A model generated the notes under the pieces. That model had not been told where the DNA came from and did not search any database. It was given only the letters and a program-made list of their open reading frames with translations. 21,571 nucleotides of DNA from a virus: positions 1 through 21,571 of IMG/VR virus record IMGVR_UViG_3300042311_000916, one strand, 5' to 3'. Below, in pieces: positions 11,081-20,696 of this stretch (position 1 is its first letter; each line of letters begins with the position of its first letter). Both the position numbers and the translations under genes were made by a program.

Positions 11081-11704
11081 TCAAACAGCCTTCACCTTCG
11101 TTGCCCCAACGTCGGCCGCAGAAGTTGGAATGCCGATTGGGAACGAACCTGGCCACTTGGTCTTGAATGCCGTTTGAATCGCTGCACCTCCATCGTTTGG
11201 CACCGGAATCCCACCCGCCAACGCATCCAACGCTTCGGCAATGTCATCGAGACGGGAGTTCACTGCGGGTGCAAGCGCGACCGCATCGCTTGCGCTTGTG
11301 CTGCCCAAGCGAACTTCGACGCCTTCGACGTAGACGTGTCCGTTCGCCTTGAGCCAAATGCGGCATGGGTTCGCCTTGTCGTTGTTCGTGACCACGACCT
11401 CGCCCTTCTCAAGGTCGACTTGGAAGCGGAAGTCGCGCGTTGCGATCGGCAAGAGCTCGCCATCGCGCCGGATGTAGAGCACCTCAGCCGCACCGTCGCC
11501 GTCTGGGTCTGCGGGTCGGTACTGCATCGCAGAGCATCCCCAGACGTCCGCAGACTCCGTCTCGGCACGGTCCTCCTGGTCAACGTTGCCCTCAAAGTCG
11601 AGAGCGATCGTTTTGTTCGTCGTGCCCCTCTTCGTGCCCGTGATGCGGCCAAAGTCGAAGAGTCCAGCAAGCACCCCAAAAACAAAACCGCGTGTTGCAC
11701 TCAT
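11081..11704 (-). CDS. Baseplate spike protein (Mu gp45-like)
   Basis: The 207-residue protein is chosen from the ATG that overlaps the hub gene stop as ATGA. A longer in-frame reading lies inside that gene. Residues 30-105 look like the OB-fold-type domain (TIALDFEGNVDQEDR, ELLPIATRDFRFQVD). Residues 106-150 carry the beta-helix-like pattern of spike tips: KGEVVVTNNDKANPCRIWLK, then NGHVYVEGVEVRLGS. The following DAVALAPAVNSRLDDIAEAL is the usual helical stretch before the C-terminus. Spikes of this type pierce the outer membrane after contraction. It follows the P-like hub gene as in Mu. Assignment by pattern and order is good. Confidence 0.8.
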   Translation of the reverse strand: MSATRGFVFGVLAGLFDFGRITGTKRGTTNKTIALDFEGNVDQEDRAETESADVWGCSAMQYRPADPDGDGAAEVLYIRRDGELLPIATRDFRFQVDLEKGEVVVTNNDKANPCRIWLKANGHVYVEGVEVRLGSTSASDAVALAPAVNSRLDDIAEALDALAGGIPVPNDGGAAIQTAFKTKWPGSFPIGIPTSAADVGATKVKAV

Positions 11705-12912
11705 ACCGTGATCGCTCCTAGCGGCACGAGCCGCAGTCGTGTTTTCGCGCCCTCTTGGCGAGAGCAAGTGAAGGTGCGCCCGACGACGTAGAAGAGGCCT
11801 TCAACCGCTGCTTCTTCGTCGAGCACATCGAGGACAGTGTCGATCGCGTAGAGCCGCGATCCTTGGCCGTGATGCGGCACGTCGTACTCCAGGAAGAACG
11901 CATCCTCGCGCTGCCTGCCAAGCTCCTCGTCCGCTCTCCGCTGCGCTTCCTCCGTGGTGCGGCAAGAAGGGTCGTGGATGACGACTGGCCGGTGCACGTC
12001 GACGTTCGGGTTCGTGGCGTGTCCGACGAAGCGTGAGCGCGAGCCGTCTTGGCCATGCGCCCGCCCATACACCGTGACCTCGCTTGAGAGCCCGTCCCAT
12101 CGCTCTGTGGAGCCGCCCTCAAGGATGTTGTTCGGCTCTTCCGCTGTGGGCGCGAGCGTGCGCACAAGCCGCATGATCGGCTCTTGGTCGTAGTCCGGTG
12201 CGCCAATCACAAGCCGCCCGCGTGCGTCCACCCAGCACATCACGCCAAAGCGTCGGCAGTGCCGGTCGATGAACTCCCACACGGTCTCGCGCATGCGCGG
12301 CCTGGCGTCGCGGACCGACACGCGTTGAATCTCCGGCTGCGTGAGCCCGCCGTGACCACGCTGTGCGCGCGCAGCCGCGCGAGCGCTTGCACTGCCACCG
12401 GAACGCGCCCTTGCACGTCCAAGTGCTGAAGCGCTTTCGCTCTGCGACATGCCGGTGAGCTCTTGCCGTGCGAGAGCCGTGTCGGTGACGACCTCCATGC
12501 CGAAGTCGGAGACGAGGTCACCGATCAGCGCAACGAGGCGCGTGCTTGACGTGACGGTCAATCGAGGGTCGACCATCGCGCTCGTGAGAAGTCCACCGTT
12601 GTCTCGCCCTTGGATGCGCAGCACGGTCCCACCGCGTCCGCCCGTCACGCTTAGGTTGTCGATGATGCCCGTCATCTGAAGCGCTTCGACCGATGCGCCA
12701 GCGTCCGGCTCCGCGTTGATGTAGACGCTGACCCGCACGCCTTCACGCATCGCTCGCAGGATGTCGCGCCGCTGGCCGTAGGTGCCTGTCATCGGCACCG
12801 TGAGCGAGAACGCGTCCGCGGGAGTCGTGAGGTCGCTCGTGATTTCGTACGACTGCCACGTGCTCAGCTCGGACGAACCAAGCGTGACCGATGCGAAGTC
12901 TCTGCGGCTCAT
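11701..12912 (-). CDS. Baseplate hub protein (Mu gp44/P-like, T4 gp27 type)
   Basis: The protein has 403 residues and starts at ATGA with the N-like gene. Residues 1-110 show the first hub barrel (STWQSYEITSDLTTPADAFS, then MTGIIDNLSV and RIQGRDN). The pair RQELTG and RVSVRDARPRMRETVWEFID flanks an unusual Arg/Ala/Ser-rich insertion at residues 156-188. Residues 213-245 contain FIDRHCRRFGVMCWVDARG followed by LVIGAPDYDQ, typical of P-type hubs. The C-terminus ends in FTCSRQEGAKTRLRLVP. The hub links tube and spike at the baseplate centre. Order and motifs agree with Mu P. Confidence 0.82.
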   Translation of the reverse strand: MSRRDFASVTLGSSELSTWQSYEITSDLTTPADAFSLTVPMTGTYGQRRDILRAMREGVRVSVYINAEPDAGASVEALQMTGIIDNLSVTGGRGGTVLRIQGRDNGGLLTSAMVDPRLTVTSSTRLVALIGDLVSDFGMEVVTDTALARQELTGMSQSESASALGRARARSGGSASARAAARAQRGHGGLTQPEIQRVSVRDARPRMRETVWEFIDRHCRRFGVMCWVDARGRLVIGAPDYDQEPIMRLVRTLAPTAEEPNNILEGGSTERWDGLSSEVTVYGRAHGQDGSRSRFVGHATNPNVDVHRPVVIHDPSCRTTEEAQRRADEELGRQREDAFFLEYDVPHHGQGSRLYAIDTVLDVLDEEAAVEGLFYVVGRTFTCSRQEGAKTRLRLVPLGAITV

Positions 12913-13862
12913 CGCTCAAGCACCTTCAGCACGCTTCCGGACGGATAGCGGTTCGGGTTCCTGGTCGGGTTGCGCTGGATGATTTCCCCTGCGCGAGTAC
13001 GGTCCTGGTAGAGGCGCAGCGCGAGCTCGGCCGCGCTCGTGTCCGCCGTGAGGCGCACCTCGATGATCGCAACCGCTTTGCGCGCCGCCGTCTCGGCAAG
13101 GTCGGCAAGAGCATCGACAAGCTGAAGCGATGCGGCGTATCCACGCCACCCGCCGACTGTGCGGAACGGGGCGAGGCTGGTCACCGAAGCAACACGACGC
13201 CGTGCGATGTCCGCCCGTGCTGCGACCTCATCCACCGAGCGAAGCCCGGTGTTGAGCCCGTCGACGAATGCGGTTGTGAGTGACCCGAAGGTCTGACCCG
13301 CGGGCCACGCCTTCTCCTCGCCTGACTTTGGTGCGCCGGCCTTTTCGAATGCACTGTCGACCTCAGCGTCAGTCACGCCCGATTCCGCGACCGCGTCGTC
13401 GAGCTCAGCCGCTGTCTCGGACGCAACAACGCGAGGTGAACGCCGCGGCGAAAGCACCGTCGAGCGAACCTCCTGCGTGACTTCCTCGAGGCTCACGCGA
13501 ATCACGCCGCCGTTGCGTCGATCTGCGTCCTCGTCGACATCGAAGTCCCAGACCTTGACGTTCATCGGCGCGAGAATCGGGTCGACGTACTCGTGCTCGC
13601 CTTGCTGCGTGTCGTTCTCGAAGAGCGACACCAGTTCACGGAACTTGCTGGGGTAGTAGCTCTCGTCGATGTCGGCGAAGAGCTCGATCTCAAGCTCAAG
13701 CGTGCGCGCCTTGCGGCCCGTGTCGTCGACCGCTTGGCCAGGCGCATGCGGAAACACGAGGTGCGCGCCATCACGGCCACCGCTCCACCTGCGACGAGCA
13801 AGCGGGAACTCGACGCCACCGATGGAGGCCTCTTGAAGGATGTCGTCCCAGGCTTCGCTCAT
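12909..13862 (-). CDS. N-like DNA circularisation/tail protein (Mu gp43 type)
   Basis: This 317-residue protein starts at an ATGA overlap with the tape-measure gene. Residues 1-115 match the N family pattern: W-D-D-I-L near the start, SIGGVEFPLARRRWSGGRD, LELEIELFADIDESYYP and KVWDFDVDE. The C-terminal part has AELALRLYQDRTRAGEII followed by RNPNRYPSGSVLKVL, which is LysM-like and typical of tail hub adaptors. In Mu, N is a tail protein that was historically linked to DNA circularisation. A baseplate role is the more likely one. Mu N is about 490 residues, so this is a short version. It stands between tape measure and hub as in Mu. Confidence 0.8.
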   Translation of the reverse strand: MSEAWDDILQEASIGGVEFPLARRRWSGGRDGAHLVFPHAPGQAVDDTGRKARTLELEIELFADIDESYYPSKFRELVSLFENDTQQGEHEYVDPILAPMNVKVWDFDVDEDADRRNGGVIRVSLEEVTQEVRSTVLSPRRSPRVVASETAAELDDAVAESGVTDAEVDSAFEKAGAPKSGEEKAWPAGQTFGSLTTAFVDGLNTGLRSVDEVAARADIARRRVASVTSLAPFRTVGGWRGYAASLQLVDALADLAETAARKAVAIIEVRLTADTSAAELALRLYQDRTRAGEIIQRNPTRNPNRYPSGSVLKVLER

Positions 13863-15856
13863 TGCCGTCTCCCTGGCTCTGTGGGCGTGCGTCCTGCTGC
13901 GGGCGCGCCACGATCGAAGGCTCGCACCATGCCCTGCGAGAGAGCGTTCACGCTGGCATCATCGAGGGTGACGGTGGACGCCTCGCCGCGAAACATCGCC
14001 ATGTTGGACGCTGCGGTTCGGCGCCCTTGTGCACCTGCGGAACGCCTGCCCTCGCGCTCAAGCATCGCGGCGCCCTCTGCCTGCGTCGTTGTGTTGGCGA
14101 GAGCCTCAGCGGTTGCGAGTTCTGGGTTGTTCATCAGAAACGCGTTGCCAGCGCTGCGCCGGTCGCGCTCGCGCGCGTTGCGTCGATAGTCTGCCGCCAT
14201 CACGCCCGCGCCAACGAGCGCAGAGCCGATGCCGAGGGCCGGAATCGCCATTCCCAGAAGCCCCGCGCCGCCTACTCCAGCAACGCCTGCGCCTGCTGCC
14301 CCGGCCCCTGCACCGCCAAGGCCCAGGGCGCCCGCGATGCCTCCACCTGCCCCGGCCATGTTGATGAGCCCGAGCGTTCCAAGCGCGCCTGTGACGCTGC
14401 CGATCGCGTCACGGAAGAAGCCGAGCGCCTCGGTCGCCATCGGGTACTGCGATGTCAGCTCGGACATCGGCCCGACCATGTCTGTCATGGTGCGGAGCAG
14501 CTCATCGCCATTCGCTGCAAAGTTCGCTTCCGCGTTCGCGCGAATGCGCATCGCTTCGCCTGCTGGGCTCGCATCGATTCGGCTGTTCACGCTCGTGATG
14601 AAGTCATTGCCACGCCCTGCGCTCGCTCCCATGAGCGCGTCGATTGGATTGCCTGTCGTGCGGGTCTGCTCGATGAGAAAGTTGCGTGCGCGTGCCCCCT
14701 GCATGTCGTTGCCGAAGATGTCCTGCATGACTGCCGCGTTCTGCATGCCTGGCGTGTTCGCCATGCGGGAGATGAGCTCGCCAAAGCCAACCTGCATTTG
14801 GCCTTGGTCGTTGAACACGTTTTGATCGCCCAGCGCTTGCTCAAGGTTCCGCTGCGTGTCGGTTCGCGACAGCTGCGACATCATGTTCTCCATGAGCGTG
14901 CGCGCGCCTTCCGGCCCCGCTCCGGACGCGCCAAGCGCTTGCGCCGTGGCCAGGAACTCTGTTGCTCCTGCGGTGCCTCGTCCTGCGTCTCCACGAAGCG
15001 TCGTGAAGGTCGACATGAGCGAGGAGAAGTTGGATGCCACGTCGCCCGCGTTGAGCGAGCCCTGGTTCATCCCATCGGCCATGAGCCCGAGCAGCGTCGG
15101 AATCTCTTCGGACGACACGCCAAGCTGCCGCTGGAACTCGCCGAGCGCTCCAACCATGTCGGCCACTGGCGCGTCGACCGCACGCGCGGCAAGCGCGATT
15201 TGCTCGAGGTTGTCCGAGATGGGGCCAAGCGCGCTGAAGCGCTCCTGCGCCACAGCAAGGCCTTCGGTGAGCTGCCCCGTGTCGGTTCCTGTGGAGCGGG
15301 CCACGCGCTGCACCTGCGTGAACACCGCGTCGGATTGCTGCGTGCTCATGCCAGCGCCCGACGTCGCGCGAATGAGCGAGAGCTGGTTGGCGAGCGTGCG
15401 CTGGATGAGCTCGTCACGCGTAGGCGCGCCAAGTGCTGACGACCATCCTTCGACGCGGCCCATTGCCGCCTGCGCGACGCCCGTCACCGCTGCGCCCACC
15501 GCACGCAGAGCGCCACCTCGCCCGCCGTGTCCTTGTGGGCGCGAGTTGTTCAGCGCGCGCCGCATGTCCCGCTCTTCAGCGCGACGAAGGCGCCCGCGTT
15601 CACGCGACGTCTCGCGCGCCGACTGCAGGATGGCCCTGTCAGCATCCGACTCGGCCCGCACACGTCCGCGCACATCGCGCTGAAGGTCACGACTCAGCGA
15701 ACGCGAGAGCCGGCCTCGCTCTGTCGACGAAGCGCGAGCGCTTGCTGAGGTCGCCCGGTCAGCGTTTCGGCTCTCGTTGACGAGACCGCGGAGAGCCTGT
15801 CGGACCTGGGCCCCGCCGCTTACCTCCATCACCCAGCGCACTACTCCGTTGGCCAT
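13859..15856 (-). CDS. Tail tape measure protein
   Basis: The protein has 665 residues, starting at an ATG with AAGGAG 7 bases upstream. Residues 30-105 form an Arg-rich charged helix (RDLQRDVRGRVRAESDADRA). Residues 140-460 resemble phage tape measures of the TP901 group, with TRDELIQRTLANQL, QLTEGLAVAQERFSALG, and the MVGALGEFQRQLG segment. A long Gly/Ala hydrophobic region (residues 484-556, for example AGALGLGGAGAGAAGAG) fits the membrane-active part. The N-terminal 98 bases overlap the -1 reading frame of the chaperone gene. If about 1.5 angstrom per residue applies, the tail would be near 100 nm, though trimming would shorten it. Confidence 0.88.
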   Translation of the reverse strand: MANGVVRWVMEVSGGAQVRQALRGLVNESRNADRATSASARASSTERGRLSRSLSRDLQRDVRGRVRAESDADRAILQSARETSRERGRLRRAEERDMRRALNNSRPQGHGGRGGALRAVGAAVTGVAQAAMGRVEGWSSALGAPTRDELIQRTLANQLSLIRATSGAGMSTQQSDAVFTQVQRVARSTGTDTGQLTEGLAVAQERFSALGPISDNLEQIALAARAVDAPVADMVGALGEFQRQLGVSSEEIPTLLGLMADGMNQGSLNAGDVASNFSSLMSTFTTLRGDAGRGTAGATEFLATAQALGASGAGPEGARTLMENMMSQLSRTDTQRNLEQALGDQNVFNDQGQMQVGFGELISRMANTPGMQNAAVMQDIFGNDMQGARARNFLIEQTRTTGNPIDALMGASAGRGNDFITSVNSRIDASPAGEAMRIRANAEANFAANGDELLRTMTDMVGPMSELTSQYPMATEALGFFRDAIGSVTGALGTLGLINMAGAGGGIAGALGLGGAGAGAAGAGVAGVGGAGLLGMAIPALGIGSALVGAGVMAADYRRNARERDRRSAGNAFLMNNPELATAEALANTTTQAEGAAMLEREGRRSAGAQGRRTAASNMAMFRGEASTVTLDDASVNALSQGMVRAFDRGAPAAGRTPTEPGRRQ

Positions 15857-16016
15857 CGTCTGACTCCTTCTGCGCCGCTACCGGGAAGCGGCACCGGTGC
15901 CAAAACAACACCTGCTCGTCGGTCAGGTCCTCGAGCGCAGAGCGGACGCCAAAGAAGTGCACAAGCGCACAAGCGTGCTCCGATCGAACGCTGCCAAAAC
16001 CGACGCGGGCGGCGCT
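15759..16016 (-). CDS. -1 frame extension of the tail assembly chaperone (T-like part)
   Basis: After a -1 slip at G GGA AAA, ribosomes would leave residue 152 of the chaperone and add 85 residues, giving a protein of about 237. The extension frame is open from the slip site through the 66-base region between the chaperone stop and the tape-measure start, and it ends inside the tape-measure gene. Its middle part (SALEDLTDEQVLFWHRCRF) uses GC-rich codons and resembles the short T domains of other phage chaperones (LTxEE...W pattern). No independent start with a ribosome binding site is apparent. A GTG at 15962 is possible but less attractive. The arrangement copies lambda G/GT. Confidence 0.68.
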   Translation of the reverse strand, partial: SAARVGFGSVRSEHACALVHFFGVRSALEDLTDEQVLFWHRCRFPVAAQKESDDGQRSSALGDGGKRRGPGPTGSPRSRQREPKR

Positions 16017-16471
16017 TTTCCCAAGGCCTCCGCGAGGGCCTTCACCTCCTCTTCGCTCGCGCTCTTCAGCGGCGCCACGAAGGATTGATGCTCAAGGTAG
16101 AGCGTGAAGAGCAGCTCGACCGTAGGCGCATCGACCTCGCGCCCGACTTCGTCTGCCGATGAGAAGAATGGCGTTGGCTTCTCGTTCTCGGTCGTCTCCG
16201 AGTCGATGAACGCGCGCGCGATGATCTCCCGCGTCTGCATGCGCGCGAGAAGGTCAGGATCCACATCGGTGAGCGTGGCGACGTCCCAACCGTTTTTCTC
16301 CGCGCCCTTCTTCAGCGCTGCGAAGGCGCGAAGCCGGCAGTCGTCGATCTCTTGGTCGGTGAGCAAGCGAACGGCGACCACGACACCTTCGCGGCCGGGG
16401 AACGCGACCGTGCGCGGAGCACGAGCCCCACGCACCACCGCGGTCACTTGGACGTCAGCGAAACGAGCCAT
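15923..16471 (-). CDS. Tail assembly chaperone (lambda G / Mu gp41-like)
   Basis: The unshifted product has 182 residues, with an ATG overlapping the tube stop as TGATG. It carries VRLLTDQEIDDCRLRAFAAL near residues 34-53, a helical core (DPDLLARMQTREIIARAFID) and FTLYLEHQSFVAPLKSASEE. This fits the chaperones that wrap the tape measure during assembly, which usually stand between tube and tape-measure genes. Near codon 152 the sequence reads TTG GGA AAA GCG, creating a -1 slippery heptamer. Direct family similarity is weak by eye, so the call rests on position, helical content and the frameshift signal. Confidence 0.72.
   Translation of the reverse strand: MARFADVQVTAVVRGARAPRTVAFPGREGVVVAVRLLTDQEIDDCRLRAFAALKKGAEKNGWDVATLTDVDPDLLARMQTREIIARAFIDSETTENEKPTPFFSSADEVGREVDAPTVELLFTLYLEHQSFVAPLKSASEEEVKALAEALGKAPPASVLAAFDRSTLVRLCTSLASALRSRT
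16016..16022 (-). promoter_or_regulatory. -1 frameshift slippery heptamer G GGA AAA
   Basis: Read on the minus strand in the chaperone frame, the heptamer has the X XXY YYZ form and differs from lambda's G GGA AAG only in the last base. Both tRNAs can re-pair in the -1 frame. A hairpin with CGCCGCC and GGCAGCG arms (one mismatch) lies just downstream but begins only about one base after the site. It may or may not matter, as lambda needs no clear structure. Confidence 0.7.
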
Positions 16472-16845
16472 CAGAGAACCTTGGGCGGCCCTGCAACAAC
16501 CTCGAAGTTCACCATGCCCGTCGCGTCAGAAGCCGAGCTCGTGTCGACGGTGTCGATGACACCTTGATGCGTGCGCCGCTTGCCGCCGAAGACGACAACG
16601 ATGTCGACCTTTTCGCCCGCGATGCACTTCTCGATGAACTCGTCTTCCATGCCCGCCTTGGGGCATGCGTTCTCCACGCTGAGCCTCGACTGCGCGGGCC
16701 CGCGCGACACGCCAGAGAAGCCCTTCGCCATCGTGATGACAGGCTTGCTGTTGGACATGTACTGAACTTTGACCGACGTCGCCTCAGCCAGCGTCGAGCC
16801 GTTGAACTGAATCTCGCCAGGTCCCTCGTAGTATTCGAATGCCAT
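16471..16845 (-). CDS. Tail tube protein (Mu gp40/M-like)
   Basis: The 124-residue protein starts 6 bases after AAGGAG, a strong ribosome binding site fitting a very abundant protein. The sequence alternates strands in the manner of tube proteins: ATSVKVQYMSNSKPVITMAK, GPAQSRLSVENACPKAGMED, KVDIVVVFGGKRRTHQGVID and the final ATGMVNFEVVAGPPKVL. It polymerises into hexameric rings inside the sheath. Length agrees with Mu M, close to 118 residues. It sits 13 bases after the sheath gene. Placement between sheath and chaperone supports the call more than sequence alone. Confidence 0.82.
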   Translation of the reverse strand: MAFEYYEGPGEIQFNGSTLAEATSVKVQYMSNSKPVITMAKGFSGVSRGPAQSRLSVENACPKAGMEDEFIEKCIAGEKVDIVVVFGGKRRTHQGVIDTVDTSSASDATGMVNFEVVAGPPKVL

Positions 16846-16858
16846 GGGGCGCTCCTTC

Positions 16859-18316
16859 TCAGCCGACCTGCGCGACGTTGGCGCCGAGCTGGTGGAAGTG
16901 GTCGATGACGTTGATCGGGATGTCGGCGTTCATGCGGCCCGCCGTGTTCACATCGAGTTCGACAACGAGCTGCGACTTGAGCGCTTCGGCGCCCTCAAGA
17001 AGCGCCTGCTCTTCTGCCGAGACGAGCTGGATGTAGAGGAAGTCGCGGACCGTGACCGGCGTCGCAACCTTCGCGGGGGGCGCCGTTCCATCGGTCGGAT
17101 GCGCCGAGATTTTGAAACCCTTGTACCGGGTCGCGAAGTTCTGCTCGATGACGTCACCAATGAAGTCCGCGACGTCGACCTTGTGCGAGTCGAGGATGCT
17201 GAAGTCGTCCGCGCCCGTTCCGTCCAGGTGGTAGTTCGTCACGCTGCGCACGATGCGGATTTCGCCGTTCACCGTGACGAGTGGCGTCAAACCGTTGTTC
17301 AGCGCCGAGTTCTGTTCGGCGGCGGTCGGGACATCGTCGAGTGCAGGCTGCGGCTTCAACCCAAGCACCGTGATGCCGTCGAGGTTTGCTGCGCGGTCGC
17401 TCGAGCGCGCTGCGGTGATGGTGCCAGCGAGAGCGGCCGCGACTTCTCCGGGGAGGTCATCGCAGTCCTCAAGCCACGCGATTTCGCCGCGTGCCGCGTT
17501 CACGGCGTCGCTGATCGTGATGGACGCAGCGAGCGTGTCAGGAGAGCAGGCGACGAACCGCCCGCGCTTCCCGTTGATCGGCAGTGCGCCCGTGTTGAGC
17601 ATCGAGCGGAACTTCTGCAGTTCGGTCGTCGTCGTGTAGGGCGCGACGACAAGGTGCCAGCGAAGCGGGGAGGCCGCATCGAGGGCAAGCTGTGGGTCGT
17701 CCATCGTGGCGCCGGTCGTGAAGAAGCCGGTCACCGCGGTGTGTGTGAGCCCGGTGCCGCCTGTGAGCAGAGAGCGCGACGAGATGCGGTTGCCGCGAAT
17801 ACCTGCGCAGCGTGCGGTGGCAGTCACGACGCCGATCGCACTCGTGGCCGTGACCGGAAGGTCCGGACGCGCGTTGATGGCCGCTGCGATGGCTGCAGCC
17901 GCAAGCGTGGGAGTGTCGCCAATCGAGATCGGCGCGATGACTCGCTCGCCCGCAATCCACACCTCGACAGCGCCATCCACCGATGCCGTGGTGCCTGCGA
18001 CGGTGAACGTCTTCGTTGCTGCCGTGCCCGCCGCCGTGACGATGACGATCGACACAGACGCGATGGGGTTGGCCTTGAAGATGGCGATGGCCATTCGATG
18101 CAGTTCACTGCCCTGGCCCGCAAGAAGCTTCACGTCGTCTTTGCCGGCTACCTCGTAGACCTGGTTGACGTTGCCTGTTCCGGCCGCGCTCTTGTTGCCG
18201 ACGAGCAGCACCTTCATCGCGCCTGTGCCAGGCGAGCGAGCGCCCGCACCAAGGCTGATTGCAACGAAGCTGCCGGGGACTTTGTAGGAAGAATCGATCA
18301 CGCTTGCGAGGGTCAT
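16859..18316 (-). CDS. Contractile tail sheath protein (Mu gp39/L-like)
   Basis: The 485-residue protein has a perfect GGAGG 7 bases before its ATG. Motifs of the Mu L family occur in order: KVPGSFVAISLGAG, KVLLVGNK near residue 36, SVSIVIVTAAGTAA, DTPTLAAAAIAAAINARPDL, then AGIRGNRI. Near residues 355-385 stands DDVPTAAEQNSALNNGLTPL followed by VNGEIRIVRSVTNY, a strong signature of Mu-type sheath proteins. The C-terminal domain (LVVELDVNTAGRMNADIPIN) provides the linking strands. Sheath subunits surround the tube and contract on infection. This is the clearest evidence for a contractile tail here. Confidence 0.94.
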   Translation of the reverse strand: MTLASVIDSSYKVPGSFVAISLGAGARSPGTGAMKVLLVGNKSAAGTGNVNQVYEVAGKDDVKLLAGQGSELHRMAIAIFKANPIASVSIVIVTAAGTAATKTFTVAGTTASVDGAVEVWIAGERVIAPISIGDTPTLAAAAIAAAINARPDLPVTATSAIGVVTATARCAGIRGNRISSRSLLTGGTGLTHTAVTGFFTTGATMDDPQLALDAASPLRWHLVVAPYTTTTELQKFRSMLNTGALPINGKRGRFVACSPDTLAASITISDAVNAARGEIAWLEDCDDLPGEVAAALAGTITAARSSDRAANLDGITVLGLKPQPALDDVPTAAEQNSALNNGLTPLVTVNGEIRIVRSVTNYHLDGTGADDFSILDSHKVDVADFIGDVIEQNFATRYKGFKISAHPTDGTAPPAKVATPVTVRDFLYIQLVSAEEQALLEGAEALKSQLVVELDVNTAGRMNADIPINVIDHFHQLGANVAQVG

Positions 18317-20022: not shown

Positions 20023-20696
20023 CAGTCCTTCTCGGCCTTTGGCTTGGTGGCCTTGGCGGGCTTCTCGGCCTTTGGCTTGGTGGCCTTGGCGGGCTTCTCT
20101 TCCGTTGCTTTCGCTTCTGCACCACGCCACAGAAACGGATGCTTCGCCTCGACTTCGAGGAGGAACAAGCCCTGCTCGGTCTTGTCGTTTGCGAGCAGGT
20201 TTGCTGCCTCGCTGAGCCGTGCGAGCTCTTCGCTCGCGCTGCTTGAATGCGGAAGCGATGTCGAGATCGATGGCGCGTCGGCGAAGTAAGCGATGAACCC
20301 GCCGCCAACCTCTTCAACCTTCACAATCCCAAGTTCAACAAGGTGCTGAAGAGGCGGCGCACTGATGTCCTCTTCCTCTTCCTCCTCTTCGAGGATGGGC
20401 AGAAGCGACAGCCACGGCTCGGCGAGAAGTCGACCGCGGACGCACTTGCGCGCTTCCTCTTCCCAGCCTTCAGCCGGCACCGTCGCACCGTCAACCTCAC
20501 GACGAGCAACAAGGAACTCGTGGCCGTGGCCAGCGAGCAAGCGCTTGAACTGCGGCCAGTCGATCGGCGTCTCAGTCTGACCTTCGACGATGCGCGTGAA
20601 GCCCACGTCATGCGACGCATCTGTGCGCATGAGCACGTGCCACGTCGACGGCTGCTGAAGCTCGCACTCTTGGACTTTGCTGATGTCGACGGCCAC
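20022..20696 (-). CDS. Hypothetical head-region protein with Lys/Ala/Pro repeat tail
   Basis: I do not recognise this 224-residue protein. I chose a GTG start with GGAG 5 bases upstream. A TTG 18 bases earlier has no binding site. Residues 1-90 hold STWHVLMRTDASHDVGFTRI, a strand-rich segment. The middle has an unusual run of glutamates (ILEEEEEEEDI). The C-terminal end carries the segment PAKATKPKAEK twice in a row, encoded by a perfect 33-base tandem repeat. Such basic, Pro/Ala-rich tails occur in DNA-binding and flexible head proteins. It lies next to the capsid gene, after the tRNA, in the place of Mu gp35, but no similarity is seen. Confidence 0.66.
   Translation of the reverse strand: MAVDISKVQECELQQPSTWHVLMRTDASHDVGFTRIVEGQTETPIDWPQFKRLLAGHGHEFLVARREVDGATVPAEGWEEEARKCVRGRLLAEPWLSLLPILEEEEEEEDISAPPLQHLVELGIVKVEEVGGGFIAYFADAPSISTSLPHSSSASEELARLSEAANLLANDKTEQGLFLLEVEAKHPFLWRGAEAKATEEKPAKATKPKAEKPAKATKPKAEKD
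20028..20099 (-). repeat. Perfect 33-base tandem repeat (two copies plus 6 bases)
   Basis: Two identical 33-base units at 20028-20060 and 20061-20093, followed by the first 6 bases of a third, encode the residue block PAKATKPKAEK twice. The identity at DNA level indicates recent duplication or ongoing slippage. Repeat number probably varies between relatives. Confidence 0.92.

Follow-up and report, generated by a model that had tools for sequence, protein, structure and literature searches.

We examined a putative programmed −1 frameshift in the tail assembly chaperone gene of a virus fragment from IMG/VR (21,571 b, 65% G+C), the full length of which is referred to below as the window. At a probability of roughly 90%, we consider that this gene yields two products by tandem slippage at the heptamer G GGA AAA, as in the original prediction, which gained support from diverged homologues, dual-coding in two of them, the order of the genes and a weak structural similarity. 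Most ribosomes would make a 182-aa protein. In a minority, the tRNA-Gly and tRNA-Lys on GGA AAA would move back by a single base within G GGA AAA and pair anew with GGG AAA, and translation would continue in the −1 frame, giving a 237-aa protein that consists of the first 152 residues and 85 further residues as an extension. If the roles are those of lambda gpG/gpGT, the tape measure protein would be a binding partner of both products, and tail tube subunits would be brought in by the extension.

Gene order and protein family

Open reading frames and Pfam/PHROG profile matches placed the morphogenesis genes on the minus strand in the Mu-like order sheath–tube–chaperone–tape measure–gpN–gpP (Table 1). 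The tail tube assignment is a weak one, based on position, the PHROG match and 31–35% identity to the L012 and L021 genes in the equivalent place. The tape-measure start is preceded by AAGGAG.

Table 1. Predicted features of the tail module in the window and loci of the nested layout in diverged homologues
Feature	Sequence	Coordinates	Strand	Basis or remark
Baseplate hub, Mu gpP-like	Window	11701..12912	−	phrog_177 1.7e-57, PF21683 6.7e-10
DNA circularisation/baseplate hub protein, Mu gpN-like	Window	12909..13862	−	PF07157 2.6e-5, phrog_184 6.9e-22
Tape measure protein, 665 aa	Window	13859..15856	−	PHROG tape measure matches, E 1.5e-6
Candidate −1 frame extension, gpT-like part, 85 codons and stop	Window	15759..16016	−	Predicted fusion product of 237 aa
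Stretch of 66 b from chaperone stop to tape-measure ATG	Window	15857..15922	−	Covered by the −1 frame
Putative tail assembly chaperone, unshifted product, gpG-like, 182 aa	Window	15923..16471	−	ORF between tube and tape measure; homology to L012/L021; fold matches
Candidate slippery heptamer G GGA AAA, in frame	Window	16016..16022	−	Last base of codon 150 and codons 151–152
Putative tail tube protein, 124 aa	Window	16471..16845	−	PHROG tail tube, E 0.018 (weak); position
Tail sheath, Mu gpL-like, 485 aa	Window	16859..18316	−	phrog_165, E 1.4e-88
Nested layout	L012	7894-8694		
Nested layout	L021	5001-5807		
Nested layout	L026	7222-8046		
Nested layout	L027	4001-4813		

No match was found among the Pfam and PHROG profiles for either the 182-aa protein or the extension of the window, and the homologues described below gave nothing better than E 0.04 against the same profiles. 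Judged by sequence, the protein belongs to an undescribed family that is absent from the libraries searched, as had been thought probable at the outset. An AlphaFold model of the chaperone, made from four sequences with a pLDDT of 72, was searched by Foldseek. Among named viral proteins, the top fold match was the CcrColossus pre-tape-measure chaperone (E 0.0067, probability 0.98), and several others that bear the name tail assembly chaperone came next. No match had an E below 0.001, and no known chaperone structure was found by sequence-profile and fold searches of the PDB. Given the gene order and this weak, model-based match, the best reading of the gene is a tail assembly chaperone in a Mu-like contractile-tail module.

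Repetitive sequences were also seen elsewhere in the window. Minus-strand positions 1-717 encode the end of a tail-fibre-like protein with repeats of the type DGASAYQLAL..GFVGT..AWLASL, and a 93-b repeat was located by TRF at 203-390. At 20028-20099, a perfect tandem repeat of 33 b encodes KATKPKAEKPA within the minus-strand ORF 20714-20022, the end of which overlaps the next ORF (20130-19552) in a different frame.

Candidate slip site and −1 frame in the window

The figures of the original prediction were all reproduced: the codons TTG GGA AAA GCG create G GGA AAA, a −1 frame of 85 codons follows and spans the 66-b gap before the tape-measure gene, and the fusion would have about 237 residues. 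The prediction left the strand unstated, and the heptamer lies on the minus strand, read from 16022 to 16016. It ends at residue 152 of 182 and is therefore near the 3′ end of the gene, and the −1 frame closes at a stop 98 b into the tape-measure gene.

Slip sites of this kind were rare in the window. G GGA AAA is the sole in-frame X XXW WWZ heptamer of the chaperone gene, and the 17 genes examined contained only three in total, the others being GGGTTTC at 17120 in the sheath gene and GGGAAAC at 870, from which the −1 frame runs for just 39 and 40 codons and ends well inside the gene. When the chaperone gene was recoded synonymously, a late in-frame heptamer together with a −1 frame open beyond the stop appeared in 2.5% of the recodings. 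The +1/−2 frame likewise has no stop for about 59 codons beyond the site.

The codon statistics were mixed. In the overlap of the zero and −1 frames, the −1 frame was the best sense frame with +5.3 bits, against −4.2 and −10.5 bits for the others, the lowest being the +1/−2 frame; in the 66-b gap it was neutral (−0.1 bits), with the +1/−2 frame at −4.1 bits. The GC-rich codon usage ascribed to the extension was only weakly confirmed, and an antisense frame scored slightly higher than the −1 frame in both stretches. Over the tape-measure gene, codon statistics favoured the tape-measure frame, and the final ∼30 codons of the extension look like passive read-through.

Downstream of the slip site, the window showed no RNA structure beyond that of shuffled sequences (z 0.4 to 1.5). 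A lean toward structure was seen in just two relatives, L021 (z −2.0 to −2.7) and L012 (−1.1 to −2.1). A Shine-Dalgarno-like GGAGG was seen by eye 13 b before the heptamer in L012 and L021, and at 4 and ∼22 b in the window. We do not claim it as a stimulator, because the spacing differs in the window and because Glu-Glu-Gly codons yield such a sequence anyway. Given the 2.5% recoding chance, the mixed codon scores and the open +1/−2 frame, the case from the window by itself is suggestive but not conclusive, with chance being an unlikely explanation.

Candidate slip sites in diverged homologues

Four near-identical contigs (L001, L002, L004 and L005) were identical to the window in this region (100% for L001 and L002) and were thus uninformative on constraint, and the genome contigs and phage records gave no match when queried with nothing but the chaperone. 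Diverged homologues were instead reached through similarity of the tail sheath and then through the chaperone of MW202476 (L012), which led to L021, L026, L024 and L027. The zero-frame protein of the window aligned over its length with those of L012 and L021 at 30% identity (blastp E 1e-5 with L012), and its identity to those of L026 and L024 was 27–29%.

All five diverged homologues had a canonical in-frame heptamer and an open −1 frame at about the matching protein position. The heptamer was C CCT TTA in L012, L021 and L027, C CCT TTT followed by T TTT TTA in L026, and T TTT TTC in L024. The conservation looked for by the original prediction was therefore found for the slip position and the open −1 frame, but not for the letters GGGAAAA, which none of the five retained. 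In an alignment of five zero-frame proteins (window, L012, L021, L026 and L024), the A-site codon fell in column 188 for all four relatives and in column 181 for the window. The −1 extensions were 63–68 codons long in these four relatives and 67 codons long in L027.

When the codons around the site were exchanged for synonymous ones, an in-frame heptamer whose −1 frame is open arose near this position with a probability of 0.025 for the window, 0.002 for L012, 0.005 for L021, 0.14 for L026 and 0.007 for L024. These probabilities were not multiplied, because L012 and L021 are close kin and the others share ancestry. As the slip letters differ among lineages, a kept function is favoured over mere inheritance of a motif, and the turnover of slip sequences (GGGAAAA, CCCTTTA, TTTTTTC and others) at a kept position is good evidence that the shift is under selection.

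Probable dual-coding constraint and the extension

Between L012 and L021, the closest pair of relatives, the share of codons with a third-position difference was 43% ahead of the slip site, 20% within the overlap of the frames and 62% beyond the −1 stop (Fisher test of 43% versus 20%, p 0.0009). In this pair, third-position changes are suppressed solely where the frames overlap, a probable signature of dual coding. The comparison of L012 with L027 gave 51% before the slip versus 35% in the overlap (p 0.029). Such suppression was absent in the more distant pairs L012 versus L026 and L026 versus L027, possibly owing to saturation of third positions.

The extensions of L012, L021, L026 and L027 have a common core of the type PVGELARFFKVRPSELLRGHL. 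The core of the window extension, ALVHFFGVRSALEDLTDEQVLFWHRCRF, resembles the L012 extension with a shuffle p of 0.0025, which was the best of about ten pairs tried, and the window extension matched the profile of the relatives' extensions at p 0.03 against shuffles. It did not rank among six-frame ORFs in profile tests against the extensions of the relatives. The window extension is likely homologous to those of the relatives by position and length, with weak similarity in sequence. A likeness to a P2 E′-type domain was noticed by eye only, and we do not claim such a domain because profile tests against Mu/P2-like extensions were not significant over six-frame ORFs.

Alternative explanations

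The GGA AAA codon pair might have arisen by chance in a G+C-rich gene whose −1 frame is accidentally open, in which case the 182-aa protein alone would be made. With 65% G+C, long open frames are common in the window (147 ORFs of at least 60 aa in six frames), and the single-gene probability of 2.5% and the neutral codon signal in the 66-b gap are compatible with such an accident, as is the finding that some Mu-like phages are without an in-frame heptamer here (L017 and L018 in the corresponding gene, and KS10 according to PMC2628397). We nevertheless judge chance to be unlikely, since all the diverged homologues that we examined carry a canonical heptamer, often in other letters, at this position, together with an open −1 frame and a predicted fusion of similar length, and since dual-coding constraint is seen among the closer relatives.

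The −1 ORF could also be a separate small gene with an internal start, for which a GTG at 15962 would open an ORF of 67 aa (15962-15759). This GTG is without a well-spaced ribosome-binding site, as a GGAG ends ∼15 b upstream, and a separate gene would leave the recurring in-frame slip heptamers of the relatives unexplained, so that we regard an internal start as very improbable. We give equally little credence to another kind of recoding at or near the site, such as a −2 shift or transcriptional slippage in place of tandem −1 tRNA slippage. Mu does use −2 (PMC5009743), the +1/−2 frame of the window is open past the site, and the T-rich runs of L024 and L026 could slip in transcription. Against this, the +1/−2 frame stops early in L024 and L026 and closes before the −1 frame in L012 and L021, while the −1 frame is open in all, and in the window its codon scores are poorer than those of the −1 frame in both the overlap and the gap. 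Moreover, the longest run in G GGA AAA and C CCT TTA is four bases, and both fit X XXY YYZ exactly. A programmed −1 frameshift at the heptamer accordingly remains our preferred reading.

Two proposed layouts around one slip position

The shift would have different consequences for product length among the homologues. The fusion product would be 237 aa in the window, 241 aa in L012, 242 aa in L021, 246 aa in L026 and 233 aa in L024, against unshifted products of 182, 266, 268, 274 and 207 aa, respectively. In L012, L021, L026 and L027, the shifted product (241–246 aa) would be shorter than the unshifted one (266–274 aa) and the −1 frame is nested inside the gene, so that the C-terminal ∼90 residues of the zero frame are coded in the other frame over ∼63–67 codons. 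No earlier report of a nested, shorter shifted product was found in a non-exhaustive literature search.

The data moderately favour a chaperone family with two layouts around one kept slip position, in which shifting would make the product longer in L024 and the window and would swap C-terminal parts in L012, L021, L026 and L027, while the fusion length (233–246 aa) stays similar and the unshifted length (182–274 aa) does not. The nested layout lets one ask whether the shift adds one domain or swaps two. The second product will be missed by gene callers in all of these phages. In L024, the chaperone and tape-measure genes are separated by an additional ORF of at most 186 codons (L024:7616-8176), which by eye resembles a chaperone and might be a second one.

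Comparison with known systems

Frameshifting in the tail assembly chaperone gene is described as general in tailed phages in a review (PMC5009743; Xu et al. 2004 as cited there), although not universal, KS10 having been reported without it (PMC2628397). A close known parallel is lambda gpG/gpGT with the slip site G GGA AAG, where a heptamer of the same type likewise lies near the 3′ end of the gene directly before the tape measure, the −1 extension runs toward the tape-measure gene and the longer product comes from a minority of ribosomes (PMC5009743). The window differs from lambda in that its heptamer ends in A instead of G, its tail module is contractile and Mu-like, profile searches place its protein in none of the known chaperone families and its slippage is predicted. 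The seven slip letters of the window are identical to those reported for mycobacteriophage TM4 (PMC4626039, citing Xu et al. 2004) and for the chaperone of Microbacterium phage Bush (PMC11749239), both siphoviruses of actinobacteria, the comparison being one of slip letters.

The Mu gp41/42 and P2 E/E+E′ chaperones are equally located between tube and tape measure with Mu-like neighbours. Mu shifts by −2 (PMC5009743), unlike the −1 shift proposed for the window, and the window has no Pfam or PHROG match to these two families, nor is the similarity of its extension to Mu/P2-like extensions significant. Among Mu-like relatives, Bordetella phage PY223 (L019:8180) has an in-frame T TTT TTG and Pseudomonas phage DVM-2008 (L020:7823) an in-frame T TTT TTC, each with a −1 extension that is unannotated in the record. 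The chaperones of L012, L021, L026, L027 and L024 share with the window a homologous zero-frame protein, the kept slip position and a −1 extension, L024 differing by its additional ORF before the tape measure. In sum, chaperone frameshifting in tailed phages and the GGGAAAA slip site were already known, whereas the protein family and the turnover of slip letters at a kept position are new, and an unannotated protein family is thereby added to a classic recoding system.
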